Program-made: the position numbers and the translations under genes
Part shown: positions 17,097-54,613 of the stretch, piece after piece
Layout: every line of letters starts with the position of its first letter
Numbering within the stretch: position 1 is the stretch's first letter
Notes under the pieces: generated by a model
What the model was told of the DNA's origin: nothing
Databases searched by the model: none
What the model saw: the letters and a program-made list of their open reading frames with translations, nothing else
IMG/VR virus record: IMGVR_UViG_3300042397_001844
Coordinates: 1-64,000 of that record
Direction: 5' to 3' (one strand)
Source of the DNA: a virus
DNA: 64,000 nucleotides

Positions 17097-18460
17097 TATT
17101 TTTTATTTTCTAAGTAATATTTTAAATCCTCGGGTGTACCTAATCCCCACATCTTATCAATATTGAATGTTTTTATTTTCTTACAATCCGCAATTGCTTC
17201 ATTAAAAGTTGGACAAGTATAAAATTCACCATTAGTTCTGATGTTCTTACTAATCATTTGTTCTGCATACTTTACATAATCAGAACCTTTAGCCCAATAG
17301 TAAACACCAACCGTTGCTATGTCTGAAATTGGATTCTTTTCTGCTACTTCTGTCACATACCCATACTCATCCACTTTAGCGAATGACCATTTAGGATGCG
17401 TTGCTGTAAATGTAAGAATACCACCATCCACTTTTTGTTCAATCATCTTATACATAAACTCATTTGAATCCCACTCCACAAATTGGTCAGAGTTTGCCAT
17501 AACCAATGGAGAATCGTTATCAATATATTCTTTTGCTAATAGAGTTGTACACGCAGCTCCTTCAGTCAAACCATCAACTTCCACAATTTTACAATTGGGA
17601 GTTATTAGATTTAATAAAGTATCTAAATTGTACTTCTCTCTATGTTCCTTTTGTACAACATAAATGTATGTAGCTTCTATGTTTAAGTTATCCACTACAA
17701 CCTGAATCATTGGTTTTCCTTCCACATCGATTAGTGGTTTAGGGAATGTATATCCGGCAGCTTGAAATCTACTTCCTGCTCCAGCCATTGGGATAAGTAC
17801 ATTCATCTTACCACCTTGCCACTTTGGTATGCTCATAACTTTTTTAGTTTCCTCTAATTTACGAATAATTTTTGATATTACCAAATCTTTTGGGTTATCT
17901 ACTCTCAAAACATTTGCTCTACTTCTACTTGCTGCCAATAAACCATGCGGAGAATCCTCCACAATAAGAGTTTCTTCCGGCAACACACTCATCATACTCA
18001 TAGCCTTCCAATACATTTCAGGATGCGGTTTAGAGTTCTTTACGTCCTCATTAGAGATGATTAAATCCATATACTCAATTATACCTATCTTAGCTAACAT
18101 AACCAAGACAGACCTTCTAATTGAGTTTGAAGCACATGCTAACTTATATCCTCTATCTCTCAACTCTTTGAATAACTCAATCTTTTGTAAATCAGGTTGT
18201 AATTGTGAAATAGCTTCAATAGTTAGATGTTGCTTTCTATACCAAATATCATCATAGAATTCCGGATGTAATCCTTTGTTTTTACTAAGCATTTCAAGCT
18301 TTTGAGTTGTCTTTAATCCATCATATATAGATAGATGCTCCGATTCGGTAATTACATACTTCTCATCGATTTCTCTTAGAGCTTGATTTAGGGTATCGTA
18401 GTGTATTTGCTTAGCCTCTACCAATACACCATCCAAGTCAAAGATTATTAATTTTGTCAT
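17096..18460 (-). CDS. Bifunctional HAD phosphatase and sugar-phosphate nucleotidylyltransferase fusion
   Basis: 454 residues. Residues 1-205 are a beta-phosphoglucomutase-like HAD: FDLDGVLVEA (Asp8, Asp10), CASNS and IVEDSPHGLLAA. A short linker leads to a nucleotidylyltransferase from Met219: VLIPMAGAGSRFQAAG (227-232) and FPKPLIDVEGKPMIQ, the signature of the glucose-1-phosphate thymidylyl/mannose-1-phosphate guanylyltransferase superfamily. Together they could remove one phosphate and activate a sugar 1-phosphate. The gene overlaps the HldE-like kinase gene by 1 nt, so kinase, phosphatase and nucleotidylyltransferase form a sugar-activation unit similar in logic to bacterial heptose activation. 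Exact substrates are not known. Confidence 0.8.
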   Translation of the reverse strand: MTKLIIFDLDGVLVEAKQIHYDTLNQALREIDEKYVITESEHLSIYDGLKTTQKLEMLSKNKGLHPEFYDDIWYRKQHLTIEAISQLQPDLQKIELFKELRDRGYKLACASNSIRRSVLVMLAKIGIIEYMDLIISNEDVKNSKPHPEMYWKAMSMMSVLPEETLIVEDSPHGLLAASRSRANVLRVDNPKDLVISKIIRKLEETKKVMSIPKWQGGKMNVLIPMAGAGSRFQAAGYTFPKPLIDVEGKPMIQVVVDNLNIEATYIYVVQKEHREKYNLDTLLNLITPNCKIVEVDGLTEGAACTTLLAKEYIDNDSPLVMANSDQFVEWDSNEFMYKMIEQKVDGGILTFTATHPKWSFAKVDEYGYVTEVAEKNPISDIATVGVYYWAKGSDYVKYAEQMISKNIRTNGEFYTCPTFNEAIADCKKIKTFNIDKMWGLGTPEDLKYYLENKK

Positions 18461-19215
18461 TAATAGATTTTAATATGTTTACCAACCTTTGTTACTCCTT
18501 TATGCTGAACTGCTATTGTAGCACATTCGTTAGCATAAATGATAGATTTATCAATATCATTACTTCTACAATATTCTATTGTTAGTGCTGATATGAATGA
18601 ATCACCTGCTCCGCTATTATCTCTAACCTCTACCTCATCAACATTGAACTCCTTCTCCATATACTTACATCCCTTACCACTCATAGTTACAATTAATTTA
18701 TCGTAGAATTCTTTGAAGTATTGTCCAGCTGCTATATTGTTTTCATACTCATGTTCATTTATTTTAATGAACTTAGCACCTAACATTTTTTCATTCACAA
18801 TCTTTTTAGTATCAATGAATACCGTATCATGCTTTGAACAAATGTATTCAATATCATCGTATTCCAAAAAACCTTTGTTGTAATCTGATATAATAACTGC
18901 ACAATAATTTTGATATGGTATATGTTCCAATCCTTGTACTCTTTGTGATTTATTTGCATCAGAATCAACTCTGATAATTTGATGATTTGTTTTTTCTTCA
19001 ACATATCGTGTCTTTGTGATAGGTTCTGAATTTGTTATCAAATCAACTTCAACATTTAATGATTCTATATTCTCATATACATTAGCTGCCATTCCGCCTG
19101 TTTCAGTTTTTCTTTTAGGAATGAATACAGGCACAGGAGCTTCAGGACACAGCCTATTGGCTGTGCCATAAATGAATACATCTTTACAACTATCTCCTAT
19201 AACTAATATTTTCAT
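18460..19215 (-). CDS. PfkB-type sugar kinase, HldE (heptose-7-phosphate kinase)-like
   Basis: 251 residues. LVIGDSCKDVFIYGTANRLCPEAPVPVF matches, in shorter blocks, the start of the HldE/RfaE kinase domain (VGDxMLDxYxxG...PEAPVPV). TGGMAANVYENI is the substrate GGAANVA motif; IISDYNKGFL (110-115) and DNSGAGDSFISAL (GAGD at 202-205, catalytic Asp205) are PfkB signatures. It is about 60 residues shorter than the E. coli kinase domain and lacks the nucleotidyltransferase half. It probably phosphorylates a heptose or similar sugar phosphate at C1. It is coupled by a 1-nt overlap to the HAD-nucleotidylyltransferase. Confidence 0.75.
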   Translation of the reverse strand: MKILVIGDSCKDVFIYGTANRLCPEAPVPVFIPKRKTETGGMAANVYENIESLNVEVDLITNSEPITKTRYVEEKTNHQIIRVDSDANKSQRVQGLEHIPYQNYCAVIISDYNKGFLEYDDIEYICSKHDTVFIDTKKIVNEKMLGAKFIKINEHEYENNIAAGQYFKEFYDKLIVTMSGKGCKYMEKEFNVDEVEVRDNSGAGDSFISALTIEYCRSNDIDKSIIYANECATIAVQHKGVTKVGKHIKIY

Positions 19216-25562: not shown

Positions 25563-26494
25563 TTTTTATTGTTTTTTATATGTTCGTATAAATTTTTTGA
25601 TTTATAATTTAAACTTTTGTTATAAGCGTTTTCAATCATCTGCTCATAATCTTTGTAGTTATGTAATATATCCCTAATCAAACCTTCTAATTCACTATTA
25701 TCATTGAAGTAAATAAAATCAACATTTGGTTCATAATAGTATTCTATTAAATTCCAATAATCTCTTTTACATAAAATCAAAGTCCTACTAAATGCTGATT
25801 CATGTACTCTTTGTTTAAATTGAGGTGCTCTACCCCAATCATCCATATACGCAAATGCCTCATTTTCCCACCACTTATCATATTGTTTAATACCATGTTG
25901 GTGATGCGGCTGAAAATGTAACATATTGTAACAAACTGATATTTTTGTTTTGGCAACTATATCTAATTTTTCTTTAAATGATACATTAAAATCGGTTGGT
26001 GCAAATGGAGGTGCATAATTTTGTTGTGATATAAATCTATAATTAAATTTACTTATTTGTTGTAAACACTCAGCATGGTCTATACCATGTATTCCACCAA
26101 AGTAAACAACATCATAAATTTTTTCTTGTCTTTCTGGAATTACATCATCACCAAACGGATAAAATATAGCTTCATGCTTTTCGTCACCAAGCATTGTATT
26201 CATCCATTTAGCCGAATATGGACATATTGTATATACTTTAGTAAAATACTTAGTTTGTTGTAATGCATCTTCTCCTATTTCATTTTGAGGAAATACAAAT
26301 TCACAAGGTTGCCATAGATTTAAAAGTTTTCTACTTTCAAAATCTTTGTATTTGTTTTGAATATCAAAATTCCAAGTGCAGTTTATTCCTTGCATCAATA
26401 CATCGTTTGTACTTGGTACTTCATGCTTATCTAAATTTAGATAAAAATTAACACCATCAGGAGTTTCACCTGCCATGTCTTTTACTATTAACAT
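25553..26494 (-). CDS. GT-B-like glycosyltransferase
   Basis: 313 residues. VYTICPYSAKWMNTMLG and IFYPFGDDVIPE are the linker region between the two Rossmann domains. YDVVYFGGIHGIDH is the second-domain start. RVHESAFSRTLILCKRDYWNLIEYYYEPN resembles the donor-binding region of Glyco_trans_1_2-type proteins (E...G...L...). The first domain begins close to the N-terminus. It could transfer a sugar to the growing glycan; the family is not exactly identified. It overlaps the fucosyltransferase-like gene by 7 nt and the epimerase gene by 10 nt. Confidence 0.62.
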   Translation of the reverse strand: MLIVKDMAGETPDGVNFYLNLDKHEVPSTNDVLMQGINCTWNFDIQNKYKDFESRKLLNLWQPCEFVFPQNEIGEDALQQTKYFTKVYTICPYSAKWMNTMLGDEKHEAIFYPFGDDVIPERQEKIYDVVYFGGIHGIDHAECLQQISKFNYRFISQQNYAPPFAPTDFNVSFKEKLDIVAKTKISVCYNMLHFQPHHQHGIKQYDKWWENEAFAYMDDWGRAPQFKQRVHESAFSRTLILCKRDYWNLIEYYYEPNVDFIYFNDNSELEGLIRDILHNYKDYEQMIENAYNKSLNYKSKNLYEHIKNNKKWK

Positions 26495-27345
26495 AATATA
26501 AATTGTTTTGGATAAAATTTTTCTCTTTTTAAAGTTGGAGAATCCGGAGAATAATACTCAGGAGCAACTACTATTTTATTTTGATTTGGATTAACATATG
26601 CAGCCCACCATCCGAAACTACTAGCGTGCGAAAGTATGTTGTGGTCACATAACATAATTCTACAAAAATCATCTATTTGTGGTTGCCCTTCGGAAAACAA
26701 AAACTCATCTCCTTTAAAGAAGTTTTTACACCACTCCACATCAGTCGAGTTATCTTCGTTGAATCTCTGTCCACCAGTGAATACTAAAAACTTTACATTT
26801 TTACCCTCAAATACTTTTTTTGCTTTTGTAAAATATTGCTCATATAAACCACCAGGATTAAATGCTTCTATAAGTTCAGTTTGCCCATTAGTCATATTAT
26901 CACCTCTCCTAACGTGAACACTTACTATTTCACAATTATACTTATCTTTCAAAGATTGGATATATTGCTTACCATTATTTAGATATTCATCTTTAGGAGT
27001 CAGTTCTTTTTTAATTTGAGATTCAATATGTTCAAAATAAAATGTACTTTGAAAGAATCCCTCCAATGTTGTGTTATCTGGAACATTGAAGAAATTATCA
27101 TCATACTTTTGCCACGTTGGTTCTTCGTATAAATTTTGCAAAGTATTCATATCTTCTTGAGTTGCATATTCACATTCTATATTAAATTTATCTAATAATG
27201 AAACTTGCCCATGCCAACTCATTGTTTGTGGATTTGGTATCTTAGCTATGTATCCGTTTTTCAAAGCCAACCCTTTTAAAGCTGCGTATTGAAATAATTG
27301 ATTTCCCAATCTACCTAATTCTCCTAATTTATGAAATGTTATCAT
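26488..27345 (-). CDS. Alpha-1,2-fucosyltransferase-like protein (GT11)
   Basis: 285 residues. GRLGNQLFQYA (11-21) and VHVRRGD (143-149) are the two diagnostic motifs of GT11 alpha-1,2-fucosyltransferases, the second binding GDP-fucose. SHASSFGWWAAYVNPN is the third conserved block. GT11 transfers L-fucose from GDP-Fuc to a galactose or similar residue. With two Fcl-type genes in the same cluster this argues for a fucosylated phage-made glycan. It overlaps the GNAT-GT fusion gene by 4 nt. Confidence 0.9.
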   Translation of the reverse strand: MITFHKLGELGRLGNQLFQYAALKGLALKNGYIAKIPNPQTMSWHGQVSLLDKFNIECEYATQEDMNTLQNLYEEPTWQKYDDNFFNVPDNTTLEGFFQSTFYFEHIESQIKKELTPKDEYLNNGKQYIQSLKDKYNCEIVSVHVRRGDNMTNGQTELIEAFNPGGLYEQYFTKAKKVFEGKNVKFLVFTGGQRFNEDNSTDVEWCKNFFKGDEFLFSEGQPQIDDFCRIMLCDHNILSHASSFGWWAAYVNPNQNKIVVAPEYYSPDSPTLKREKFYPKQFILC

Positions 27346-29177
27346 TTTAAAAGTTTTTTAAAAAATTGATTATATTTAGTTACCACCATTTCTTCTGAAT
27401 TAAATTGCTTAACATACTCCAAATCCATATGATAGTTTTTATTGTAAAGAATATCATATAATTTAGATGCATATTCTTCTGTACCATCTACTATGTATCC
27501 ATTCTTTCCATCGTTTACCAAATCAGCGGCAATGTTAGTTGGAAATGAAACTAATGGTGTATTGTTTTTAATACATTCGGTAGCCATCATCGGCCCAGCA
27601 TCTGCTAAAGTTGTTAGAGCAAATACATCTACATTTTTGTAAACTTTAGATAACTCTTTTCTATTTGGAATTACTCCCAAATATTCAACCTCAAATTTAG
27701 TATCTATATTCGATTTAGGACCAATCGTCTTAATTAAAATATCATTTGGATTATCACACATTTTATAAAGCCAATCTAATATATTTTCAAAATACTCTTT
27801 TCCTTTCCTAGTAGTTTCAGGCTGCGTAGTTCCCCATAATATAGTTTTTCTACTTCCCGTTTGCTTTTCAGTATTATCTACTTCAATCTCATCAAATGGA
27901 AATGGTATAAATTCATATGGTATATTCGATAGCTTACTTTTTAAATGTACATTCAATGAATGAGTAGAACCAACTATAATATAAGATTCAACCGAATTGT
28001 ATAATTCCACACGCTTATCTATAAATACACCATCAAACAAACCATCTAATTCAGGATATTCTGATTTGTTACCATACATCCAATGTGTCATTGTTATGTT
28101 TACCAATTTACTATCATTGGTTTGACATATGTTTTTTATTAAATTTTCGGGTAAATCATTACCAGAAGCGATTAATATTTTATGCTTTGGTATTTCATTC
28201 AATAGATATGGTATATTTTGCTGACATGGTTCTATGTAAGATAGAAAATCAGTTTCATCAACTTTATTTTTACTTTTAGTAAAATCAAAAACAGGCAAAA
28301 CTTTAACTCTTACATTATCAAGCTTTTTTAATATCTTATAAAGAATATAGCTACCACTAACAGAATCTCCATAATCAATATCACCACATACATACAAAAC
28401 ATCACAATATGTTTCTTTTCTTATTTTCCTATATCCAATATACGAATGTAAAAATTTAAAGTCAAAGAAAGAATACAAATTTATTACAGGCAAATTATTT
28501 GAACTTATAAGAGCAGTTGCTGTAATTACATTTTTTTGCTTAAGAAACTGAAATATTCTATACCAAAAACTATATGATAGATGTGCGTATTTAGAATTAA
28601 CTCCTCCCAATTCTAAATTACAAGTGTTAGTAGTATCATCTATTTTGAATGCCATAAATGAGAATACAACACCATCAATTTCTCCAACAAATAAATTTGA
28701 TTTTTTCTTCAAATCATCAATCCAATTTGAGTTTCTTGATTTAGCCAAATCTTTTGATATTTTTGGGTCTTCAAAAAATCTACCATGATTAAAATTATTT
28801 GATGAAATATCCTTAATAGTATCGATATCATTATCAGTAGCCTCTCTTAAAATAAAATTAAACTTTTCAAGTATTTTATTTTCTTTTAAAGTTTTCAAAT
28901 TGTTTGAAACTAATAAACTACTTTCTATGTTTATATAGTTGGATGCTTCTAAAACTTGCTTTATCAAACTATCAGTTGGTTGTATTCTCAATGATGTATA
29001 TACTACATTATTTTCTTTACAATATAAATCAAATTTATCAATTAATTGTATTCCACTTTCTAAAGAATCTACGCATATTTCATAGATTTCATTAGTTTCA
29101 TTATTAAAAACTTTTGAATTCCAATCTGTCTTTTCAAAGAAAAGGTAATTATTATTATCTATCTCTATTTTTTGCAT
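27342..29177 (-). CDS. GNAT acetyltransferase-like and GT-B glycosyltransferase fusion
   Basis: 611 residues. Residues about 105-250 look like a GNAT (FILREATDNDIDTIKDIS, LFVGEIDGVVFSFMAF, SSNNLPVINLYSFFDFKF), similar to WecD-type amino-sugar N-acetyltransferases. Residues about 255-611 are a GT-B transferase: VEYLGVIPNRKELSKVYKN, VFALTTLADAGPMMATECIKN and FPTNIAADLVNDGKNGYIVDG (GT4-type C-terminus). The fusion suggests that an amino sugar is acylated and transferred by one polypeptide. It follows the ACP/AMP-ligase/SDR genes, which could supply the acyl group. The GNAT assignment is moderate and the GT assignment is strong. Confidence 0.68.
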   Translation of the reverse strand: MQKIEIDNNNYLFFEKTDWNSKVFNNETNEIYEICVDSLESGIQLIDKFDLYCKENNVVYTSLRIQPTDSLIKQVLEASNYINIESSLLVSNNLKTLKENKILEKFNFILREATDNDIDTIKDISSNNFNHGRFFEDPKISKDLAKSRNSNWIDDLKKKSNLFVGEIDGVVFSFMAFKIDDTTNTCNLELGGVNSKYAHLSYSFWYRIFQFLKQKNVITATALISSNNLPVINLYSFFDFKFLHSYIGYRKIRKETYCDVLYVCGDIDYGDSVSGSYILYKILKKLDNVRVKVLPVFDFTKSKNKVDETDFLSYIEPCQQNIPYLLNEIPKHKILIASGNDLPENLIKNICQTNDSKLVNITMTHWMYGNKSEYPELDGLFDGVFIDKRVELYNSVESYIIVGSTHSLNVHLKSKLSNIPYEFIPFPFDEIEVDNTEKQTGSRKTILWGTTQPETTRKGKEYFENILDWLYKMCDNPNDILIKTIGPKSNIDTKFEVEYLGVIPNRKELSKVYKNVDVFALTTLADAGPMMATECIKNNTPLVSFPTNIAADLVNDGKNGYIVDGTEEYASKLYDILYNKNYHMDLEYVKQFNSEEMVVTKYNQFFKKLLK

Positions 29178-29183
29178 AATATA

Positions 29184-29900
29184 TTATATTGTACCAGAAT
29201 CTACGTTTATTAATTGACCTGTTATTGAATTAGAATTATCTGATATTAAAAACTCTATTGTGTTTGCTACCGATATCATGTCCGTTGGCTTTTTTAAAGA
29301 AGTTCTATTATAAATTCTATCTTTTTGCTCATTGGTTAATGTACTACTCATATCAGTTTCCATAAAACCGGCTACAATACAATTTGAACGAATTCCCTTT
29401 CTACCCCACTCTCTAGCAGTATTTTTTGAAAATGCTTCTAAAGAACCTTTTGTGGATGCGTACATTGATAATCCATTATATCCAGTGTGAACACTTATGC
29501 TAGATATGTGTACAATAGAACCCATAATTTTATTATATATCATATTTCTAATCACAAACTTTGTTATGATAAATGGAGAAAATACATTCACATCATACAT
29601 TAATTTTAGCTTATCAATATCCATATTAGTTATAATATCATCATATGCAATAGCTGCGTTATTTATGAATCCATGTAAAGGAATAGAGTTACCAATTTCA
29701 CTTTTTAACAAAGCTTCCACATCAGCACAATTTTGTAAATCTAATTCAATATGTTTAAAGTTTGGATAGTTTGCTAATTCAGTATGTGCAGTTCTACCAA
29801 TACCATATACATTATAACCACTATCTAATAAAATTTTAGCAGTTTTAAATCCCAACCCTCTGGATATGCCTGTTATTAATATATTTTTATTTTCTTTCAA
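29184..29900 (-). CDS. Short-chain dehydrogenase/reductase (FabG-like), TTG start
   Basis: 238 residues. GISRGLG (11-17) cofactor motif, INNAAIAYDD (NNAA), Ser in VHISSISVHTG (133-135) and Y147xxxK151 (YASTK) are complete catalytic features of classical SDRs, closest in pattern to 3-oxoacyl-ACP reductases. No ATG lies in frame between the upstream stop and Gly11, so a TTG at 29900 is the likely start. It overlaps the ligase gene by 14 nt. Next to an ACP and an AMP-ligase gene it may reduce an ACP-bound acyl chain (for example to a hydroxyacyl group) before transfer to an amino sugar. Confidence 0.8.
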   Translation of the reverse strand: MKENKNILITGISRGLGFKTAKILLDSGYNVYGIGRTAHTELANYPNFKHIELDLQNCADVEALLKSEIGNSIPLHGFINNAAIAYDDIITNMDIDKLKLMYDVNVFSPFIITKFVIRNMIYNKIMGSIVHISSISVHTGYNGLSMYASTKGSLEAFSKNTAREWGRKGIRSNCIVAGFMETDMSSTLTNEQKDRIYNRTSLKKPTDMISVANTIEFLISDNSNSITGQLINVDSGTI

Positions 29901-30993
29901 TTTTTCCGTTTTCAGTTATTTTAATTTCATCAACTATGTTTATCTTAGTTGGTACTTCGTAATCGTTCAATATTTTTTTAATATCTGATTTAATATCTAC
30001 CACATTTTTAGAATATTGAGATTTTATTACAACATCACATACAATTATAGTTCCAAGTATAGAATTACTTTTTGAATACACATTACATAACTTAATATAT
30101 TCTATACCACCAATTACATTTTCAATATAAATTGGATTTACCTGATAACCACCTATGTTTAATAAACTACCTTCTCTACCAACTATTTTAAATTTATCAT
30201 CGCCAACCATTTCAATTAAATCACCCGTATCATACCAATCCCCATCTATCTTTATATCATTTGATTTACCTACTAAACTTATATTAACTTTTAATTTACC
30301 ATCAGATAAATTTATTAATGATTTATATTTTTCAGGTATTATAAAGCTATCTCCATCAGTTGCAAATAAAGAACTAAGTTCAGTAGATGCATATATGTTT
30401 TTTACTTTAGCATTTGGAAATCTTTTTTTAATTTCAGATTGTAATTCTACAGTAGAACCCTCTCCGCCAAATGATATTTGCTTTACATTTGAATAATCAA
30501 TACCTTCCGATGTAAGTAATTTATAAAATGTAGGAGTTGCTGATATATGGCTGATTTCGTATTTTATAATTCTATCAGATGCTTCCTTAAAGTCACATTT
30601 AAATAAATTTACTAAAGTATTACCATTTAAAAGTGCCTGCAACAATACTTGATAACCTGCCATTTTATTTGGATTATAAGTAAATGCCCATATATCGTTA
30701 AATCTATTTTCTGATATTTTTATGTTTCTTGTTATAGATTCAAATGTATGAGTTATTGTTTTAGGAAAGCCTGTTGTTCCAGAAGTTTCCAATACTATAT
30801 TTTTATTTTTACTTTTTAAAGCGTCAATTAATTCAGAGTAGTTTAATACATTTCCATCTAATAGATTTTTTATCTTATCAACTATTAATGATTGAAATTC
30901 TGACAAATTTACTTCAATAGATTTGTTATTTACTAACAGAATCAAATCATTATAAGTTATAATTTCAGTATCTATCAAAAATGGCTTATGCAT
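29887..30993 (-). CDS. AMP-forming acyl/aryl ligase (ANL superfamily)
   Basis: 368 residues. LETSGTTGFPKTI (SGTTGxPK at 71-78) is the ANL P-loop. IYASTELSSLFAT is the A5 motif, WYDTGDLIEMVGDDKF (A7) and IVGREGSLLNIGGYQVNP (A8) are the hinge, and the C-terminal ENGKIERK ends with the catalytic lysine region. It is short for the family (about 500-550 residues) because the N-terminal domain is reduced. It likely activates a carboxylic acid as an acyl-adenylate and loads it onto the ACP encoded directly upstream (8-nt overlap). Confidence 0.85.
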   Translation of the reverse strand: MHKPFLIDTEIITYNDLILLVNNKSIEVNLSEFQSLIVDKIKNLLDGNVLNYSELIDALKSKNKNIVLETSGTTGFPKTITHTFESITRNIKISENRFNDIWAFTYNPNKMAGYQVLLQALLNGNTLVNLFKCDFKEASDRIIKYEISHISATPTFYKLLTSEGIDYSNVKQISFGGEGSTVELQSEIKKRFPNAKVKNIYASTELSSLFATDGDSFIIPEKYKSLINLSDGKLKVNISLVGKSNDIKIDGDWYDTGDLIEMVGDDKFKIVGREGSLLNIGGYQVNPIYIENVIGGIEYIKLCNVYSKSNSILGTIIVCDVVIKSQYSKNVVDIKSDIKKILNDYEVPTKINIVDEIKITENGKIERK

Positions 30994-31204
30994 TCAATTT
31001 CTTTTTAATATCACCAATTGTAAAAACAAGACTATCTTTAAAAATATCTATATTATACACTTCTTCAATTTCAACAGTCAATTCAGCTAACATAAAACTA
31101 TCATAACCAATATCATTTTTTAAATTCATATCATCAGTTATTTCTAAAACTTTAGAATATCCATTATTCTCTAATACCTTATTTACTATCTCTAACAATT
31201 CCAT
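30986..31204 (-). CDS. Acyl carrier protein
   Basis: 72 residues, the size of a stand-alone ACP. The phosphopantetheine site is GYDSFMLAEL with Ser36, a DSF variant of the usual DSL, in the expected position after helix 1. It is acidic and helical overall. The 3' end overlaps the ligase gene by 8 nt, a pairing typical of dedicated ACP/AMP-ligase sets. It needs a host phosphopantetheinyl transferase. It probably carries the acyl group that decorates an amino sugar. Confidence 0.85.
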   Translation of the reverse strand: MELLEIVNKVLENNGYSKVLEITDDMNLKNDIGYDSFMLAELTVEIEEVYNIDIFKDSLVFTIGDIKKKLNA

Positions 31205-31205
31205 A

Positions 31206-31838
31206 TTATTCTATTACTTTATTATTTTTAAAAACAGTAAATTCAGTTAAATCTCTATAACCATTTAATTCACCTTGGTCTGAATTGTGTATTGCTAAGT
31301 TTTGAAACATTGCCAATCCATGTGCTGCTTGTTGTGGAGTCATATACATATTCCATCCTAAGAATGTAATATCATCATCTTTATAATATTTCTCACTTCT
31401 ACCTTCATAACGAGCTTTTTTAAACCAATCAGCTGCTTCAGCGTTATCAGTTAAAATCATACCACCTTTCCAAATTGGAAGAATCTTTTTAATATGAAAT
31501 GATAATCCCATAAATTGACCTGGCATATACATATCCTTTGTTAATCTCTTAGCCGCATCCCAAATTGGATATGGTTTCAATTGATATGCACCTACCCAAT
31601 GGTTTGTTTCAGGTCTTTTATCAAAGATAACTTCACCACCCGCATGTATAATTGATTGTGGTACTGAAAGGTAAGTTTTAGATGGGATGGTTACCTCTTT
31701 AACTTCATTATATTTACAAATTAAGAATAGTGCATTAGTGCAACTATCAACTGAAATAGCATATGGTGCTCCCGTATAAGCTGCTATTTCTTCTTCGAAC
31801 ATTCGTACTACTTTGTACGGGTTGTGTAACATTGGCAT
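31206..31838 (-). CDS. DegT/DnrJ/EryC1-like PLP aminotransferase, truncated form
   Basis: 210 residues. FEEEIAAYTGAPYAISVDSCTNALFL matches the N-terminal substrate region of the DegT family, VTIPSKTYLSVPQSIIHAGGEVIF the next block, and SFHIKKILPIWKGGMILTDN the PLP-lysine block (Lys of HIKK followed by GG). Full-length members have about 370 residues, so the C-terminal domain is largely missing, yet the active-site core is present. It may be a genuine short phage variant. Products are usually 3- or 4-amino sugars, consistent with the GNAT and acyl-transfer genes downstream. Confidence 0.7.
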   Translation of the reverse strand: MPMLHNPYKVVRMFEEEIAAYTGAPYAISVDSCTNALFLICKYNEVKEVTIPSKTYLSVPQSIIHAGGEVIFDKRPETNHWVGAYQLKPYPIWDAAKRLTKDMYMPGQFMGLSFHIKKILPIWKGGMILTDNAEAADWFKKARYEGRSEKYYKDDDITFLGWNMYMTPQQAAHGLAMFQNLAIHNSDQGELNGYRDLTEFTVFKNNKVIE

Positions 31839-31840
31839 AA

Positions 31841-32071
31841 TTAATCTTTTTTGGTTTCGTCTTGTCCTATTATTTCAATACAAAGTATATTCTTATCATT
31901 AACCATTACCAATCTACCATCGCTTGTTTCAAACTTTGTAAATTGACCTTGCTTAATTGAATATGAATCAACTCCCTCAAAAGTTCGTTTTTCTCCATTA
32001 ATGAAGTGAAGTATTTGAGAAACATATCTTCCTTTTTTTGTTATTGATGATTTTAAATTTGGGTTTGTCAT
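31841..32071 (-). CDS. Small hypothetical protein
   Basis: 76 residues, soluble and beta-rich (ILHFINGEKRTFEGVDSYSI, RLVMVNDKNILCIEII). No family is recognised. It sits 2 nt before the DegT-like gene and 12 nt after the GT-D-like gene, so it is transcribed with the glycan genes. It may be a regulatory or structural accessory; nothing in the sequence shows a function. Confidence 0.6.
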   Translation of the reverse strand: MTNPNLKSSITKKGRYVSQILHFINGEKRTFEGVDSYSIKQGQFTKFETSDGRLVMVNDKNILCIEIIGQDETKKD

Positions 32072-32083
32072 TTTTTTATTTTA

Positions 32084-32863
32084 TTAATTCCATATACATA
32101 TTTTTTGTATATCCTGTCCACCTGTGTAATTCCAAAATGCTTTTAGATAACCTCTTTCAGTTGGCATGTTCATCATCGGAGTAAGGCACGTTCCAATATC
32201 AATATAGGAATTATTGGGAAAATCTCTGAATAATTCATATACTGCCAAATTTGTGAACGTTGAAGCTGAAAATAAGAATACGTGATTTGTGATGTTATTT
32301 TCTTTAATCCACTGTCTAATAATTTCAATTTTATCATAATCATTTATAAATGCGTTATATCCCACTCTAAAATCTTTTTTAATGAATGGTAGTTTAGATG
32401 TATCTGCTTTTTCATGTCCAACGAATACACAATCTTTACTATAAAAAATTGGAAGTGTATTCATTATAAATGCTGGGTAATTTCCATTAACCCATAAGTT
32501 TGCCCATGTTAAACTATCATCATCTCCACCATGCAAATCAATTTGCCAATCGAAGTTTTCTTTACCAACACAACAACTACAACTAATACCTTTGTAATAG
32601 TTTGATTGTCTATGTTTATAAGCCTCCACTAATTTTTTTTGAAATAATTGGTGTTGATTTGGGTCAAAGTGCTTAAAATCTAATGGTTGATAAAATCCAG
32701 ATTGCTTATGTTCTCCAATTTGAATTAAACCTTGGTCTAATTTTGATTCTTTATTTTGAAGAATGTACATTTCACCATCAGAATATCTAGCGAATGCAAA
32801 GTGTACATCGTTACGAATCATATCCGTAAACTTAGCAAAGTGTTCTCTAAAGTTTTTCTGCAT
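32084..32863 (-). CDS. GT-D-fold-like glycosyltransferase (DUF1792-like)
   Basis: 259 residues. HFAFARYSDGEMYIL near residue 22 carries the RYxDGE motif (Asp29-Gly30-Glu31) that binds the nucleotide sugar in GT-D enzymes such as the DUF1792 domain of streptococcal glycosylation systems. VFLFSASTFTNLAVYELFRD and SYIDIGTCLTPMM near the C-terminus correspond to the second nucleotide-binding block. GT-D enzymes add glucose to protein-linked GlcNAc on serine-rich adhesins. That is notable because this phage has Ser/Thr-rich proteins. Sugar specificity is not readable. It overlaps the WecB-like gene by 17 nt. Confidence 0.62.
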   Translation of the reverse strand: MQKNFREHFAKFTDMIRNDVHFAFARYSDGEMYILQNKESKLDQGLIQIGEHKQSGFYQPLDFKHFDPNQHQLFQKKLVEAYKHRQSNYYKGISCSCCVGKENFDWQIDLHGGDDDSLTWANLWVNGNYPAFIMNTLPIFYSKDCVFVGHEKADTSKLPFIKKDFRVGYNAFINDYDKIEIIRQWIKENNITNHVFLFSASTFTNLAVYELFRDFPNNSYIDIGTCLTPMMNMPTERGYLKAFWNYTGGQDIQKICIWN

Positions 32864-33848
32864 CTAATATTTTTTTAATTTGTTTTGCTGCATACCCATC
32901 TCCATACGGACAAGGTTTACAAATATACGAATTTTTTTCCAAAGTAACAAATAAATCTTTTAATTTATCAGTAGTTTTACAAAGATGCAAATGCCCAGTA
33001 TAAATTGCTTCAGGTCTTTCCGTTACTTCTCTACATACAATTACCTTCTTATTAAGAAAAGATGCTTCTTCCTGTATCCCACCACTATCACTTATTACTA
33101 ACTTACATTCCAATAGGATAGCTATTAGTTCATCATGTGAAAGTGGTTCTACTATTTTAACGTTTGTTAGTAAGTTTCTATGAATTTGTACATTTGGATT
33201 TGGATGTATTGGTAATATAAATTCTAACTCTGGGTATTGTATTGCCAAATCATTTACTTCTTTAAACCACTCATGCATTATAGGATGATTCTCTCTACGA
33301 TGTAATGTAACCAATACTTTGTTTCCGTAAGTTGGCGTAGGTAAATCAACTAAGTTATCTAGCACAGTGTTACCAACTAACCAAGTATCACCTAAAGATT
33401 TTTCTTCAAATAGATTAACCATTGCCGTTTGAGTTGGTGCAAAATTTACATCGGAAATACGAGCTATCATTTGTCTGTAACCTTCCTCAGGAAAGGGGTG
33501 TTTTAGACTCTTACTTCGAAGGCCTGCTTCTAAGTAGTATATTCTCATTCCTCTATGATATGCTCCTAAAGCACATGCAAATGCTGATGCCGTATCACCT
33601 TGAACCATAACACCTCTAAACTCACCTTCCGGTAAATCTAAACATCCTTTTACAACTTCATCTAATCTATTAGAACCTTCTTTGATAGTTGCTTTATAAT
33701 CAACATCAACTTCTTTAAGTAAATCTTCATGCTGACCTGTAAAGAATAATTTATACTCACTACGGTCCATTATTTTAATTAAAGGCTTTATCTTTAGCCA
33801 TTCCGGTCTAGTTCCGAAACATATTAATATGGGTAATTTATTTTTCAT
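32847..33848 (-). CDS. wecB: UDP-N-acetylglucosamine 2-epimerase-like (WecB-type)
   Basis: 333 residues. ILICFGTRPEWLKIKPLI, FFTGQHEDLL, VQGDTASAFACALGAYHRG, YLEAGLRS and VISDSGGIQEEASFLNKKV are the conserved blocks of non-hydrolysing UDP-GlcNAc 2-epimerases. Catalytic acidic residues in the GQHxxL and GDTxSAF blocks are present. It interconverts UDP-GlcNAc and UDP-ManNAc in the cytoplasm. It is slightly shorter than WecB (about 375). It supplies a ManNAc donor or the precursor of ManNAcA for the cluster. Confidence 0.87.
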   Translation of the reverse strand: MKNKLPILICFGTRPEWLKIKPLIKIMDRSEYKLFFTGQHEDLLKEVDVDYKATIKEGSNRLDEVVKGCLDLPEGEFRGVMVQGDTASAFACALGAYHRGMRIYYLEAGLRSKSLKHPFPEEGYRQMIARISDVNFAPTQTAMVNLFEEKSLGDTWLVGNTVLDNLVDLPTPTYGNKVLVTLHRRENHPIMHEWFKEVNDLAIQYPELEFILPIHPNPNVQIHRNLLTNVKIVEPLSHDELIAILLECKLVISDSGGIQEEASFLNKKVIVCREVTERPEAIYTGHLHLCKTTDKLKDLFVTLEKNSYICKPCPYGDGYAAKQIKKILDAEKL

Positions 33849-34608
33849 TTACTAATTTCCAACCTTTTTGTCTTTGTTCGTTAAAATATTGATTCATTAA
33901 TTGTTTGAATGGTACACCTTCTACACTTCTTTGATTTGATTCCCACAGTGAATTAGCATCGCCACCATAAGTTGCACCCTTAGTACTTCCCCACATTTCC
34001 ATATCAGAACGAGGATGAGGTGGTACATAAGTTTTAATACCAGCATACTTTTGTAACATATAGGAGAAGTGCATATCTTCACCACAGGTATTATATTTAG
34101 GGTCTGGTAATTCTCTAACCATAATAGGTAACCATTCTTTTTTAAAGAACCAACTATGCCCCACTAAATCAACTTCTACAGTCCTATCATTGTTACCTTG
34201 GTCAGGCCATCCGAATCTTAAGTAGTGTTCGTAGTATGAAGATTGTTGCGGAGGTAATGGATTCAAATACATCAATCCTACCGTTCCCAATAAACCTTCC
34301 TTCTCATTCATTGTGTTCATACAATTCTCTAACCATTTCTTACCAGGAATCGTATCATCATCAAATACACACACATAGGGATTCTTAGCGTTCATAGCAA
34401 AATAGAATCTTGCCCACACTCCGAAGTTGTAATTACAATAGGCAACAGGAACTTCCGTACCAATATCGTAATTAATCAAATCGTTATCGCCGGGGTTATT
34501 GTACCATACTAATATCTCATCCGGCGGTAATGTTTGATTTTTCAGAGCTTCTATTTGTTCATTTAGATTATCTCCTCTTTTGTAACCATTTAATATAACT
34601 GTTATCAT
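33838..34608 (-). CDS. GT2-like glycosyltransferase
   Basis: 256 residues. TVILNGYKRGDNLNEQIEALKNQTLPPDEILVW is the GT2 N-terminal fold in shorter blocks. VCVFDDDTIPGKKWLENCM has DDD at 83-85 as the metal motif. CGEDMHFSYMLQKYAGI carries the ED catalytic base. The C-terminal stretch is rich in Trp and Gly. It overlaps WecB-like by 11 nt and the next GT-B gene by 4 nt, so it belongs to the glycan operon. Acceptor unknown. Confidence 0.8.
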   Translation of the reverse strand: MITVILNGYKRGDNLNEQIEALKNQTLPPDEILVWYNNPGDNDLINYDIGTEVPVAYCNYNFGVWARFYFAMNAKNPYVCVFDDDTIPGKKWLENCMNTMNEKEGLLGTVGLMYLNPLPPQQSSYYEHYLRFGWPDQGNNDRTVEVDLVGHSWFFKKEWLPIMVRELPDPKYNTCGEDMHFSYMLQKYAGIKTYVPPHPRSDMEMWGSTKGATYGGDANSLWESNQRSVEGVPFKQLMNQYFNEQRQKGWKLVNEK

Positions 34609-35609
34609 TGTAAATAATTTTTAATTCGTTCTATCCAAACTTCTTGCGAAAAAAGTTCTTTATAATTTTCTTTTGCTGTCTTAGAGCATTTATCATAAAA
34701 CTCTTTATCTTCTCTTAACATAGTTGCCATCTCTCTTGCACTTTCCAAATCATTAACCATTACTGATGTATATGGGTGACATAACATTTGAGTATCTACA
34801 TCCATATTTCCAATACAAGGAATTCCAAAATATGCACAATTCAACGCAAATGTACCAGCTGCCACCGTTGGCATCATATGAACTGCATATTTGAATGTTG
34901 ATAAATTTTGCATCCATTCACTCCACATCATACGAGGTAAGTGATTTAAATTATCCACACTACCTTCATTCTCTCTCATAGCATGTGATGTTTGTGCCCA
35001 AATAGGAACTTCAAAATTGTTAGCTATAATGTAACTTTCAAATCCACCATACCATCTTGCAAAGTTACCACCTATAATTGCTTTATCTTCTTTTGTAGGT
35101 ACTATATCTTTGATTAGAGTATCAATCATCAATGTACCGATAGGTTGGATTGTTTTGTTAGGAAATAACCCCTTATAATACATTACATCGGAATCATTGT
35201 GAGTAAAGATTGAATCACATGATTGTAAAAAATTGAAGAAGTAAATTTGGTCTGCTATCTCATAATCGTTATACCACCAATGAGGTCCTTCTTGAATATA
35301 GTGAACCGAAGTATTACCTTTTTCTTTTATTCTACCAACAATATCTTGCTGAAGTAATTCTGAAAATGGATTAACTCCGTTTACCAATCTACTTCCTTCC
35401 GAACTTAAGAATGTTTTACCTTTTGGAAATATAACAAAGACATGGTCATAACCTGTCAAATTTTTATCTGCACCAAACAAATGAATATTAAAATGGTCAG
35501 CATCTAAAGCATGCATCCAAGCAAACTCCGTTCTCATATTTGGATGATTGGCTGGAACTTTCCCAACGAATCCCATTTCAGTAAGGAAAGCTATCTTAGA
35601 TTGTATCAT
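34605..35609 (-). CDS. GT-B-like glycosyltransferase
   Basis: 334 residues. IQPIGTLMIDTLI and AIIGGNFARWYGGFESYIIAN form the interdomain and second-domain start. TVAAGTFALNCAYFGIPCIGN resembles the donor-phosphate loop of GT-B enzymes (xxGTFxLEAxxxGxPxI). The C-terminal SAREMATMLREDKEFYDKCSK is a typical GT4 helix. The N-terminal half lacks a recognisable signature, so this is a fold-level call. It overlaps the GT2 gene upstream by 14 nt. Confidence 0.62.
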   Translation of the reverse strand: MIQSKIAFLTEMGFVGKVPANHPNMRTEFAWMHALDADHFNIHLFGADKNLTGYDHVFVIFPKGKTFLSSEGSRLVNGVNPFSELLQQDIVGRIKEKGNTSVHYIQEGPHWWYNDYEIADQIYFFNFLQSCDSIFTHNDSDVMYYKGLFPNKTIQPIGTLMIDTLIKDIVPTKEDKAIIGGNFARWYGGFESYIIANNFEVPIWAQTSHAMRENEGSVDNLNHLPRMMWSEWMQNLSTFKYAVHMMPTVAAGTFALNCAYFGIPCIGNMDVDTQMLCHPYTSVMVNDLESAREMATMLREDKEFYDKCSKTAKENYKELFSQEVWIERIKNYLQ

Positions 35610-36228
35610 AATAAGCGTTTTGTTTTTCTTGCCTATCTATTTGTTTATGATGATATAAACAATATATTTCTTCGTTTGGTAATATTGATAATGTATTATA
35701 TCCAACAATTCTTTCATGCACTTTACCAACCCATTCAATTTCAGATGTTCTACGATATATACGAGTTTGATAATCAGGAAAATTAACCCAACCGTTATCA
35801 TTTACATTCCACTTCCATTTTTTAATATGTGTTTTAGTTAAACCTTCAACGGTGTTAATTCTAGGAACAAAGAATAAATCAACATCTTTATTAAATTCAA
35901 TAAATTCTGATAAGTTTTCTACCAAATATTCTGATGGTATTTCATCTGCATCAATTTGAAAAATGAATATTCCGTTTGCATTATTCTTTATATTATTTTT
36001 AAATGATGCAAAATCATTATTAAGAGGATATCCAATTACTTTGATTGTATTTGTATGTAACTGTGATAAAATGGTTAAATAACTTTTAATAGGGTCTGTA
36101 ACCGATTCTTCATCATATTGAATTAAAATCTCATCATCCTTTTTAATTCTATCCTTTAGGAAGTCTACTAATTTTGTAATTTCTTCCAATTCATTGCAAA
36201 CAGTAATTGCGTAAGTAATATTAATCAT
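35596..36228 (-). CDS. GT2-like glycosyltransferase, first gene of the glycan operon
   Basis: 210 residues from the ATG at 36228. A longer frame from a TTG at 36249 would start inside the promoter -7 element, so I reject it. INITYAITVCNELEEITKLVDFL is the GT2 start and FIFQIDADEIPSEYL has the DxD motif. WVGKVHERIVGY near the C-terminus resembles the WxxxVHE block of LgtF/WaaE-like beta-glucosyltransferases. The leader is only about 14 nt. It is the first cistron after the promoter at 36247-36278. Confidence 0.8.
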   Translation of the reverse strand: MINITYAITVCNELEEITKLVDFLKDRIKKDDEILIQYDEESVTDPIKSYLTILSQLHTNTIKVIGYPLNNDFASFKNNIKNNANGIFIFQIDADEIPSEYLVENLSEFIEFNKDVDLFFVPRINTVEGLTKTHIKKWKWNVNDNGWVNFPDYQTRIYRRTSEIEWVGKVHERIVGYNTLSILPNEEIYCLYHHKQIDRQEKQNAYYDTI

Positions 36229-36246
36229 AGTATTTTTATTTGAATA

Positions 36247-36278
36247 CAAATATACGAAAATTATATGAGATTAACAAA
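36247..36278 (-). promoter_or_regulatory. Bacteroidota-type promoter at head of the glycan operon
   Basis: Minus-strand TTTG (36278-36275), a 20-nt spacer ending in TTTTCG, then TATATTTG (36254-36247). It belongs to a family of seven sites in this window with exactly 20 nt between the boxes. It is placed about 20 nt before the ATG at 36228 and after the terminator at 36332-36368. Confidence 0.75.
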
Positions 36279-36386: not shown

Positions 36387-38468
36387 TTAATACGTTGTAT
36401 TAACAGTTATCCAAGTACTACCATTATGGAACATTAACCAAGATTGTCCAGCTGAGCCAGATGAGTATAACATACCAGCCTGCCCAGTTGGTGCGAATTG
36501 ATTTGGTATTAAATGAATTCCAGAATACAAAGCAATAGAACCACTAACCGTTAATATTTTTTGAGTTGGTTCAAATCTTAAATCAGCTTCAACAGCACCT
36601 GCCGTTGTTACATTATTATATGTTATTATACCATCATTAGTAGTTCCTGTTAAAGTTAAAAATCCACTCACACCACTTGTACCACTTGTACCACTCACAC
36701 CACTTGAACCACCACCACCTGTCAATCCAGCTGAACCATTTGTACCAGAAGTACCGTTTGAACCAGAAGTACCATTTGTACCTTCTACCCCACTTACTCC
36801 AGAAGTTCCCGATGTACCTGAAGTTCCATTAGAACCATTAGAACCAAATCCATTACTTCCACTTATTCCACTTGTACCAGATGTACCATCCGTTCCAATT
36901 CCATCATTTCCAGAAGTTCCCGATGTACCACCTGGCCCTTGCGTTCCACTAGTACCCGATGAACCATTTGAACCAGCAGCGGATGAAATACCCGATGAAC
37001 CATTTGTACCAGAAGTTCCACTACTACCAGGAATACCATTAAATCCACTCACACCAGATGTTCCAGATGTACCACCACCACCGCCGCCTGTTATAGTAAC
37101 TTGTGCTGTTGAATTACCCAAATCAGTAACAGTTGCTCCAGTAAATGTTAATATAGAAACATTAGATACACTATTAGGATTTGAATCCTCAACAGTTAAT
37201 TTTAAAGAAGATGTTGGTGTCTGAGAATTACTTCTTCCACCCACGGCACCTACCCAAACATATCCTTGTCTTAAAGATGCTGTCATAGAACCTAATACAT
37301 CCAAAGAACCTGTTATTTGTATATTATTTGTAGTTGCTACAACAGAACCCGTTGCTCTAAATATACCATCAGTTGTTGCAGTTCCCCCACCACTTCCAAA
37401 TGATGAAGTAGCTACTAAAGATGTTATATTATTAGGTCCACCTACCCAAGCATAACCTTCTCTCAAAGATGCAGTTAATGTTGAACTAATATTTAACGAA
37501 CCAGTTATGCGTTGATTACCATAAAAAGTATTTGCAGATGATGTTTGTGCAAATAAATTATAGTTTTGTATTTGTGTAGATGAACTTACAATTGCTGCCC
37601 CTTTTAAAGATGCAGTATATGCCAATACATTATTTATTAAAGTTGTATCGATGGATGTTCCAGATGAACCACTTATTCCTGATGTACCACTTGTACCGCT
37701 ACTTCCACTTACTCCAGATGTACCACTTGTACCGCTACTTCCACTTACTCCAGAAGTTCCCGAAGTTCCAAAATTTGTACCATCTAATCCGCTTGTACCA
37801 CTTGTACCACTTGTACCAGAAGTTCCGCTTATACCAGATGTACCAGATGTTCCCGAAGTTCCAGAAGAACCAGAAGTTCCTGATGAACCACTTATTCCAC
37901 TTGTACCGCTTGTACCAGAAGTTCCTGATGTACCTGATGTACCACTACTACCAGAAGTACCCGAAGTACCACTACTACCAGATGTACCACTACTACCAGC
38001 TTGTCCCGTAGCACCTGCTGTATTTATAAACCAAGATGTAAATGGTCCTCCACTACCAACAACAGAACCAACATTAACAACAAATTGACCCGTACCACTA
38101 TTATATGATGTAACGGTAGCTGTCATATAATTGCTACCATCTTTAGATATAATTGTTTGTTGACCAGGTGTCCAAGAAAGACCCGTACCTATTGTGAAGG
38201 TTTTAGCTCCAATTGTTATTGATTCCGATGTTGATGAAATTGATGTGAATAAATCACCTTTTACGCCGGATGTTCCAGATGAACCAGACGAACCACCACT
38301 TCCAGCCGTACCATTTGTACCATTAATTCCAGAAGTACCAGCAAGACCTGATGTTCCACTTGTACCATTAGTACCTGCACTTATTATACCTTCTAAGTAT
38401 GTAAGATTATCATCCATCTCCACTGCGGTAAGTGGAGAACCCTTTGATAGACGTTTAGTTAATGCCAT
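36387..38468 (-). CDS. Collagen-like tail-fibre protein
   Basis: 693 residues. An N-terminal attachment segment (TKRLSKGSPLTAVEMDDNLTYLEGI) is followed by Gly-X-Y repeats at about 32-70, 151-272 and 461-602, mainly GTSGTSGSSG. Between them are beta domains at about 71-150 and 280-460; the second contains AYTASLKGAAIVSSSTQIQNY, nearly identical to modules in the 1062-residue fibre. The C-terminal domain (about 603-693) ends AGQSWLMFHNGSTWITVNTTY, a typical fibre tip. Gly-X-Y tracts form collagen-like triple helices, so this is likely a trimeric fibre. Thr and Ser in the Y position could be glycosylated, but this is inference. Confidence 0.85.
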   Translation of the reverse strand: MALTKRLSKGSPLTAVEMDDNLTYLEGIISAGTNGTSGTSGLAGTSGINGTNGTAGSGGSSGSSGTSGVKGDLFTSISSTSESITIGAKTFTIGTGLSWTPGQQTIISKDGSNYMTATVTSYNSGTGQFVVNVGSVVGSGGPFTSWFINTAGATGQAGSSGTSGSSGTSGTSGSSGTSGTSGTSGTSGTSGISGSSGTSGSSGTSGTSGTSGISGTSGTSGTSGTSGLDGTNFGTSGTSGVSGSSGTSGTSGVSGSSGTSGTSGISGSSGTSIDTTLINNVLAYTASLKGAAIVSSSTQIQNYNLFAQTSSANTFYGNQRITGSLNISSTLTASLREGYAWVGGPNNITSLVATSSFGSGGGTATTDGIFRATGSVVATTNNIQITGSLDVLGSMTASLRQGYVWVGAVGGRSNSQTPTSSLKLTVEDSNPNSVSNVSILTFTGATVTDLGNSTAQVTITGGGGGGTSGTSGVSGFNGIPGSSGTSGTNGSSGISSAAGSNGSSGTSGTQGPGGTSGTSGNDGIGTDGTSGTSGISGSNGFGSNGSNGTSGTSGTSGVSGVEGTNGTSGSNGTSGTNGSAGLTGGGGSSGVSGTSGTSGVSGFLTLTGTTNDGIITYNNVTTAGAVEADLRFEPTQKILTVSGSIALYSGIHLIPNQFAPTGQAGMLYSSGSAGQSWLMFHNGSTWITVNTTY
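36663..37088 (-). repeat. Gly-X-Y (collagen-like) repeat tract 2
   Basis: Encodes residues about 461-602. Nine-base units code for Gly-Thr-Ser, Gly-Ser-Ser or Gly-Thr-Asn, with occasional Gly-Ile/Val-Ser. It is interrupted by few non-Gly triplets. Confidence 0.9.
37653..38018 (-). repeat. Gly-X-Y (collagen-like) repeat tract 1
   Basis: Encodes residues about 151-272, an almost uninterrupted run of GTS, GSS, GIS and GVS triplets. A 36-nt block is duplicated around 37686-37757. Antisense frames give Val-Pro-rich shadow ORFs. Confidence 0.9.
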
Positions 38469-53826: not shown

Positions 53827-53858
53827 CAAATATACGAAATTAATCTGAAACTACCAAA
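53827..53858 (-). promoter_or_regulatory. Bacteroidota-type promoter within the end of Mom-like gene 1
   Basis: Minus-strand TTTG (53858-53855), 20-nt spacer with GTAGTTTC and ATTTCG, then TATATTTG (53834-53827). The -33 box lies inside the last codons of Mom-like gene 1, whose stop is at 53840. It drives the 84-residue gene and Mom-like gene 2 with an extremely short leader. Confidence 0.75.
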
Positions 53859-54613
53859 TCTATCGGCTCCATTTTATGAACTTCATCGATAATATCCAAC
53901 TCTACCTTTGGATATGGGAATACCTCATGTTTAAGCGATTTTAAGAGGGCTTTACGTTCCTTTTTATCTTTGGTTAGAATATACACATAGCGATGCTTAC
54001 GGGGTTCTCTTTTAATCCAGAATGGGCTTGTAACCATTGTCTGAATTATCTTTGGGTCATTCGTTCCGTACTTCACATAGGATGTCCGAGAATGATGCCA
54101 TTCATCATCTTCACTCCATTTGAAACTCCAACTATCTGACCATCTGATTTTGTTACCTTGATATATCCAATTAGTAGCTTGATATACCGTTCCTAAGTGC
54201 CCAGCGTTTGGGTCTGAATAAGATATTAGGGCTTTGATACGAGGTACATTAGTTCTTAACCATTCAAAAGATTGTCCAACGAACCAACTCTCAATGTTAC
54301 TACCATATCCATCGAATACGAATAGTCGTGTTAATTCTAATACACCATCTCTAGGAAGTAATTCGGAAATTGATGCGCCGGCATTTCTACCAACCGGGTC
54401 ACCATAACAGGCAACTCCAACTAATTGTTCATTCACTCCACTAAAGAATGAATGTTCATCATCGGATATATAAAATAATCCAATGGCATAGGATACCTTT
54501 GTCCATATTCCACTATAATGGTTATTGACAATGATATCCTTTGCTATGTTCTTATTAATCTCTCTAATTGAAAATTTAGAGATATCGCAATATTGTTTAC
54601 CTTCTACTTTCAT
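53840..54613 (-). CDS. Mom-like GNAT-fold DNA adenine modification protein (copy 1)
   Basis: 257 residues. It shows the same Mom signature: NNHYSGIW, LVGVACYGDPVG, LELTRLFVFDGYGSNIESWF, and ALISYSDPNAGHLGTVYQATN (131-148) then WIYQG. YADxxxGH appears as YSDxxxGH, a conservative change. Copies 1 and 2 differ clearly in sequence, so each may have its own specificity or they may form a heteromer. The start overlaps the stop of the HTH-like gene by 4 nt. Catalytic details of Mom are still limited, so the role is known by family only. Confidence 0.85.
   Translation of the reverse strand: MKVEGKQYCDISKFSIREINKNIAKDIIVNNHYSGIWTKVSYAIGLFYISDDEHSFFSGVNEQLVGVACYGDPVGRNAGASISELLPRDGVLELTRLFVFDGYGSNIESWFVGQSFEWLRTNVPRIKALISYSDPNAGHLGTVYQATNWIYQGNKIRWSDSWSFKWSEDDEWHHSRTSYVKYGTNDPKIIQTMVTSPFWIKREPRKHRYVYILTKDKKERKALLKSLKHEVFPYPKVELDIIDEVHKMEPIDLVVSD

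Follow-up and report, generated by a model that had tools for sequence, protein, structure and literature searches.

The DNA analysed here, referred to as the window, comprises bases 1-64000 of a 72,886-base IMG/VR virus record, which is itself a fragment. Its minus strand carries a run of five genes, beginning with a predicted PLP-dependent sugar aminotransferase of the DegT family and of miniature size (mini-DegT, 210 aa, 31206..31838). This is followed by a dedicated acyl carrier protein (ACP, 72 aa, 30986..31204), a compact ANL (AMP-forming) acid-ACP ligase (368 aa, 29887..30993), and a FabG-like SDR (238 aa, TTG start, 29184..29900), predicted to be a 3-oxoacyl-ACP reductase. The last gene encodes a fusion of an N-terminal WecD-like GNAT domain, a predicted N-acyltransferase (aa 1-258, 28404..29177), with a C-terminal GT-B (GT4-like) glycosyltransferase (GT) domain (aa 259-611, 27342..28403). 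All five were recovered as open reading frames, head to tail, exactly as the original prediction had placed them. A gap of 1 nt separates mini-DegT from the ACP gene, which overlaps the ligase gene by 8 nt; the ligase gene overlaps that of the SDR by 14 nt, and 6 nt lie between the SDR and the fusion. A 4 nt overlap then leads into a GT11 glycosyltransferase gene (26488..27345, minus strand, Pfam Glyco_transf_11 86.1 bits). Every Pfam match in the cassette scores above the gathering threshold, namely DegT_DnrJ_EryC1 with 77.7 bits (cut-off 19.8), PP-binding with 30.5 (cut-off 20.8), AMP-binding with 63.7, AMP-binding_C with 34.2, adh_short_C2 with 142.8, and Glycos_transf_1 with 40.7. PHROGs and NCBIfam assign the cassette genes to the same kinds. 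The GT11 gene is found directly 3' of DegT in relatives free of the cassette, e.g., L008 and L009, and is a member of the surrounding glycan cluster, outside the cassette.

This cluster extends over ~13-42 kb and includes many GTs, epimerases, methyltransferases, and heptose-type genes, as well as a collagen-like tail-fibre gene (693 aa, 36387-38468) that sits between GT genes mid-cluster. No RNA family was detected in the cluster at gathering score. At 17096-19215, a HAD phosphatase fused to a sugar nucleotidyltransferase adjoins a heptose-7-phosphate-kinase-like protein, which suggests an NDP-heptose route in the phage. The DNA polymerase, clamp loader, helicase, and ribonucleotide reductase of the window match T4-type phage families, which makes the source virus a T4 relative. 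Its DNA polymerase has its nearest counterpart, out of 50,697 phage records, in Microcystis phage Mel-JY01 (52%), and a protease-like gene has kin in cyanophages (30-37%). Several glycan genes are common to the Flavobacterium phage immuto (40-48%), one open reading frame outside the window carries a Bacteroidota-style signal peptide as judged by eye, and a Bacteroidota genome holds the nearest copy of the cassette found in cells. The pointers to the host are split between cyanophage kin and Bacteroidota signs. Elsewhere in the window, a Mom-like DNA modification protein is encoded at 53840-54613 (phrog_1384, E 2e-47).

Mini-DegT matches only positions 22-90 and 164-241 of the Pfam model; what it lacks is an internal segment together with the C-terminal portion. 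It falls short of the full-length DegT fold of about 360-390 residues by more than a third, and its activity could differ from that of a normal DegT enzyme. The short form is nevertheless constant, with a length of ~190-229 aa in 103 of the 104 open reading frames from the loci examined. The PLP-binding Asp94 and the Schiff-base Lys118, which aligns to the Lys of GDP-perosamine synthase, are invariant in all 80 distinct aligned sequences. A degraded or locally truncated DegT is ruled out by this conservation of length and active site across viruses. An AlphaFold model computed from 38 sequences reached a pLDDT of 92.5. Its best VIA match is the sugar transaminase 7b0d (Z 20.2, rmsd 2.9, 203 residues aligned to a 368-residue chain), with GDP-perosamine synthase close behind.

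The mini-DegT family of ~210 residues (31206-31838; L004-L083, L248) is widespread in phages, with relatives in at least 181 places in viral contigs. At E 1e-25, only one of 385 Bacteroidota genomes gives a match, so the family is mainly viral. The acyl cassette is absent from most of the 80 mini-DegT loci examined; mini-DegT is a phage-typical form that is far commoner than the cassette. In many relatives without acyl genes it ends a conserved glycan block, which in the window precedes it on the same strand (31841..36249, by Pfam) and is composed of a 76-aa gene, a 259-aa gene, a WecB-like epimerase, and three GTs. A role of DegT as a private part of the module was consequently rejected for this lineage, as the block exists without the cassette. 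It was likewise rejected that mini-DegT always stands beside an acyltransferase, the downstream gene being highly variable. The conserved 259-aa gene (32084-32863) has no Pfam match and contains a FARYSDGE stretch, which we take to recall DUF1792 / GT-D glycosyltransferases. A DUF849-like gene, presumably of the beta-keto acid cleavage enzyme family, lies directly 3' of mini-DegT in L053, L054, L059, and L061. Another (L249:5715-6563) lies a few genes before mini-DegT in the single Bacteroidota genome that has one. In Synechococcus phage S-SCSM2R (L090:10001-10585), mini-DegT is accompanied by a radical-SAM gene, GTs, 2OG-Fe(II) oxygenases, and an inosamine amidinotransferase.

The four genes that follow mini-DegT differ from it in composition. 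The ACP, ligase, SDR, and fusion genes have a GC content of 0.22-0.29, compared with 0.329 for DegT and 0.31 for the following GT11 gene. The slot after DegT holds other genes in relatives whose DegT is 96-99% identical. In L007, L012, and L013, for example, a single hexapeptide acyltransferase takes the place of ACP, ligase, SDR, and GNAT, and is followed by the same GT; this acyltransferase shows 52% identity to one beside a WecE transaminase in the Bacteroidota genome G1035. The ACP, ligase, SDR, and fusion genes therefore look like a low-GC insert behind the mini-DegT of an older, widespread phage block.

The ACP carries its phosphopantetheine serine, Ser36, within a GYDSF motif, and D35-S36 is invariant in five viral ACPs. 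The ligase has a length of 368 residues in the window and 317 in relatives. Its motifs TSGTT, TE (E205), TGD, and GR as well as K364 are invariant in five viral ligases. Since DltA and NRPS adenylation models are among its matches, the ligase and ACP might be thought to load an amino acid in the manner of DltA and DltC, so that an aminoacyl rather than a hydroxyacyl group would be added. This is improbable. In one alignment, Ala112 of the ligase stands opposite the Asp of surfactin synthetase that we take to hold the alpha-amino group; this alanine is invariant in the five viral ligases, and amino-acid loading would leave no role for a FabG-like reductase. The catalytic Ser134, Tyr147, and Lys151 of the SDR are invariant among the viral copies, and its best equivalog is the 3-oxoacyl-ACP reductase model TIGR01830, with 153.9 bits under a cut-off of 297.75. 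Because this FabG-like reductase adjoins the ACP, a step from 3-oxoacyl to 3-hydroxyacyl is suggested. The option of a hydroxylated chain, raised in the original prediction alongside reduction, finds no support, as the enzyme present is a ketoreductase. Comparison of the window with L016, at a dS of 0.6-1.0, gave dN/dS values of 0.11 for the ACP, 0.30 for the ligase, 0.22 for the SDR, 0.33 for the GNAT, and 0.11 for DegT, which shows purifying selection on the cassette genes.

No Pfam model matches the N-terminal half of the fusion, and the model of the GNAT part (residues 1-258) is of low confidence, with a pLDDT of 53. Residues 103-258 of this model nonetheless match GNAT structures throughout, with Z up to 12.1, rmsd 2.8, and 130 aligned residues. 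In hhalign comparisons, the GNAT profile aligned with E. coli WecD at E 1.5e-5, from residue 13 and thus with the N-terminal part included, and with WecD plus one relative at E 2e-10. Of seven other GNATs used as controls, among them three PseH-like ones, none scored better than E 0.067. The kinship is clear with a profile of six GNAT homologues, but not with two sequences. The NCBIfam WecD model TIGR02382 matches neither the fusion at a threshold of E 0.01 nor the homologue in the Bacteroidota genome G810 at one of 1e-6, and a PDB sequence search with the GNAT part gave only a chance match to repeats. WecD is absent among the VIA matches of the GNAT model, which says nothing against the kinship. 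By its profile, the GNAT domain is a distant WecD relative that falls below the curated WecD model. The predicted GNAT-GT-B fusion is thus borne out, on its GT side by Pfam and on its GNAT side by the fold of a low-confidence model and the WecD profile. In L016 the GNAT is a stand-alone 257-aa gene, and the same GT occurs as its own gene directly 3' of the GNAT (L016, L017) or of the hexapeptide acyltransferase (L007, L013). Wherever the gene order was read completely, the GT is fused to an acyltransferase or directly follows one.

An ACP-ligase-SDR run in the same order was found in ten other viral contigs (L016, L017, L086, L087, L088, L175, L176, L177, L179, and L180). Since L016/L017 and L179/L180 look near-identical, these represent about eight independent cases. 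L016 and L017 share the order DegT-ACP-ligase-SDR-GNAT-GT, with GNAT and GT as two genes. In the contigs from L086 to L180, a hexapeptide acyltransferase 5' of the ACP replaces the GNAT 3' of the SDR. Mini-DegT is nearby in nine of the ten, one gene off in L087 and L176 and ~3.5 kb off in L086; the L179 sequence examined is truncated on its upstream side. Detection depended on the query, as a single ligase or fusion sequence gave no match in viral contigs and an alignment query found the relatives. In the 50,697 phage records, the ACP and the fusion have no relative and the ligase and SDR just remote ones; the ligases and SDRs of the ten contigs have no close relative in the phage records searched. 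This rarity among sequenced phages would suit non-functional passenger genes or an assembly artefact. Such an explanation is scarcely credible, given that the frames are intact, the active sites conserved, and dN/dS low, and that independent contigs of other metagenomes show this gene arrangement unbroken. A further viral ANL ligase set occurs at L187:7743-14190, and also in L186, L188-L191, and L194, on contigs of up to 342 kb. In L187 the ligase has for neighbours a putative ketosynthase, a pair of putative fatty-acid desaturases, and an enzyme that resembles flavin-dependent tryptophan halogenases, all named from sequence reading.

Cellular counterparts of the cassette were also found. The Bacteroidota genome G810 contains ACP, ligase, SDR, and GNAT exactly in the phage order, in an operon that is not within a sugar cluster. 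Compared with the window, its SDR reaches 60% and its ligase 40% identity, and the two fall inside the phage clade, with support of 100/100 and 99/98, respectively. G1035, also of the Bacteroidota, combines WecE (558 bits, over cut-off), preceded by a hexapeptide transferase, with a downstream set of GNAT, ACP, ligase, and SDR, and in G1055 a GNAT relative lies three genes from WecE (633 bits, over cut-off). Paraglaciecola sp. MB-3u-78 has a pseudaminic-acid operon with PseH (134 bits, over cut-off), followed by ACP, ligase, and SDR; a PseC-like DegT and PseF-, PseI-, and PseG-like genes of this operon were named from sequence reading. G764 pairs the ACP-ligase-SDR run with a NeuD-like transferase and DegT, and G303, G575, and others contain looser versions, some with a ketosynthase-III-like gene. 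Such ligases are rare, occurring at E 1e-28 in 1 of 397 genomes of the Aquimarina family and 6 of 369 of the Paraglaciecola class. The loci of G810, G1035, G764, and MB-3u-78, which come from Bacteroidota and Gammaproteobacteria, resemble the phage locus in that an acyltransferase, either a GNAT or NeuD-like, accompanies their ACP-ligase-SDR run. They differ from it in their longer ligases of 411-464 aa and in a full-size DegT where one is present, and none is a virus record.

The phage GNAT shares with E. coli WecD an alignment that covers the N-terminal part, and its bacterial relatives lie near WecE-family transaminases. It differs in being fused to a GT and in scoring under the curated WecD model. 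WecD uses acetyl-CoA as acyl donor. The WecD kinship and the WecE neighbours in bacteria together point to a dTDP-4-amino-6-deoxy sugar, acylated on its amino group, as the probable acceptor, which we infer from these relationships.

The place of mini-DegT in the module is less straightforward. Possibly it stands outside the pathway, with a host aminotransferase supplying the amino sugar and the ACP-ligase-SDR-GNAT-GT set merely inserted behind an unrelated gene. The conserved block without the cassette, a DegT GC content like that of the flanks, and the bacterial operon L240, which has no DegT, would all fit this explanation. It is nevertheless unlikely, since in the other phage lineage mini-DegT stands directly before a contiguous run of hexapeptide acyltransferase, ACP, ligase, and SDR (L088, L175, L177, and L180), a full-size DegT accompanies the cassette in bacterial loci, and the catalytic Asp and Lys are invariant.

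The closest described system is the viosamine island of P. syringae pv. tabaci 6605, which comprises vioA, vioB, acp, vioR, vioS, vioT, and vioM and yields a 4-amino sugar N-acylated with 3-hydroxybutyryl on the bacterial flagellin glycan (PMC3927599). Mutants in vioA, vioB, vioR, and vioT lose 3-hydroxybutyryl-viosamine; VioR is inferred to reduce 3-oxoacyl to 3-hydroxyacyl, and its loss removes the modified viosamine, while vioS encodes a ketosynthase III thought to build the chain (PMC3927599). The island and the phage locus both unite DegT, an acyltransferase, ACP, a ketoreductase, and a GT. The phage has an ANL ligase where the island has ketosynthase III, of which no match (PF08541) was found in the 72.9-kb record, a fragment, and its DegT is miniature, whereas that of the island is presumably full-size. 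In Flavobacterium psychrophilum, wfpC-G include an ACP and a 3-ketoacyl-ACP reductase, together with a PglD-like acyltransferase; their predicted role is to place a hydroxyacyl group onto UDP-Qui2NAc4N (PMC6519341). The O-antigen precedent drawn from Flavobacterium relatives is therefore real as to the measured glycan structure, but the enzyme roles there are predictions (PMC6519341). This locus also has two ketosynthases instead of a ligase. The phage cassette is best read, from its gene content, as a viosamine-type acyl-amino-sugar module in which a ligase stands in for the ketosynthase, the DegT is of miniature size, and a WecD-like GNAT is fused to the GT. Modules of this kind are known from bacterial surface sugars; the phage setting and the gene combination are new. 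In line with the original prediction, no report of such a cassette in a phage was found in the limited literature collection searched.

The genes are likely to form a mobile cassette whose products prepare a donor of an N-acylated amino sugar and then attach this sugar to a glycan. Mini-DegT would transaminate a keto sugar nucleotide supplied by the host, probably an NDP-4-keto-6-deoxyhexose. The ACP would be activated by a host phosphopantetheinyl transferase, and the compact ligase would adenylate a short acid without an alpha-amino group and load it onto the ACP. By analogy, this could be a 3-oxo acid such as acetoacetate, although the identity of the acyl group is a guess. The FabG-like SDR would then reduce the loaded chain to a 3-hydroxyacyl-ACP, and the GNAT domain, going by its WecD kinship, would pass this acyl chain on to the sugar at its amino group. 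Neither a 4,6-dehydratase over cut-off nor a phosphopantetheinyl transferase of PF01648 was found in the 72.9-kb record. With ketosynthase III missing as well, the host probably supplies those steps, unless the genes lie outside the fragment. Three lines of evidence support the predicted path of amine installation, acid activation on ACP, reduction, transfer, and sugar attachment: the linkage of the genes, conserved in bacteria as well as phages; the kinship of the GNAT to WecD, with WecE neighbours beside its bacterial relatives; and the viosamine island of P. syringae, which has been tested genetically (PMC3927599).

In the final step, the fused GT would add the acylated sugar to a glycan. 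This is most likely a host surface polysaccharide, so that the receptor surface would be altered. In T4-like cyanophages, large clusters of the LPS type are usually interpreted as host-surface genes, which argues against the virion itself, e.g., its collagen-like tail fibre, as the target. The virion is a less favoured but appreciable possibility, as the 693-aa tail-fibre gene is situated among the GT genes of the same cluster and giant viruses put such sugars on their own fibrils. An example is Mimivirus L142, a fusion of a viosamine N-acetyltransferase with a GT that exists as two genes in some strains (PMC10117803). Compared by domain make-up, L142 resembles the phage protein as a viral amino-sugar acyltransferase-GT fusion. 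It differs in coming from a eukaryotic virus and in transferring an acetyl group, and no ACP or ligase is mentioned in the part of the source consulted (PMC10117803).

Taken as a whole, the locus may be a self-contained, swappable phage cassette for hydroxyacyl amino sugars that rewrites a surface glycan, be it of the host or the virion, with an acyl group of the cassette's own choosing. Its aminotransferase would be a miniature one of virus type and its ACP a private one, while a compact acid-ACP ligase would do duty for the ketosynthase. The chances for and against this joint reading are evenly balanced. If it is true, phages borrow, beyond glycosyltransferases and sugar-nucleotide enzymes, a private acyl-activation line for the N-acylation of amino sugars and exchange it through one slot. 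The cassette also offers small testable enzymes, namely a 210-residue aminotransferase and an acid-ACP ligase of 368 residues (317 in relatives), and it could provide a concrete route for phage-driven change of surface antigens.
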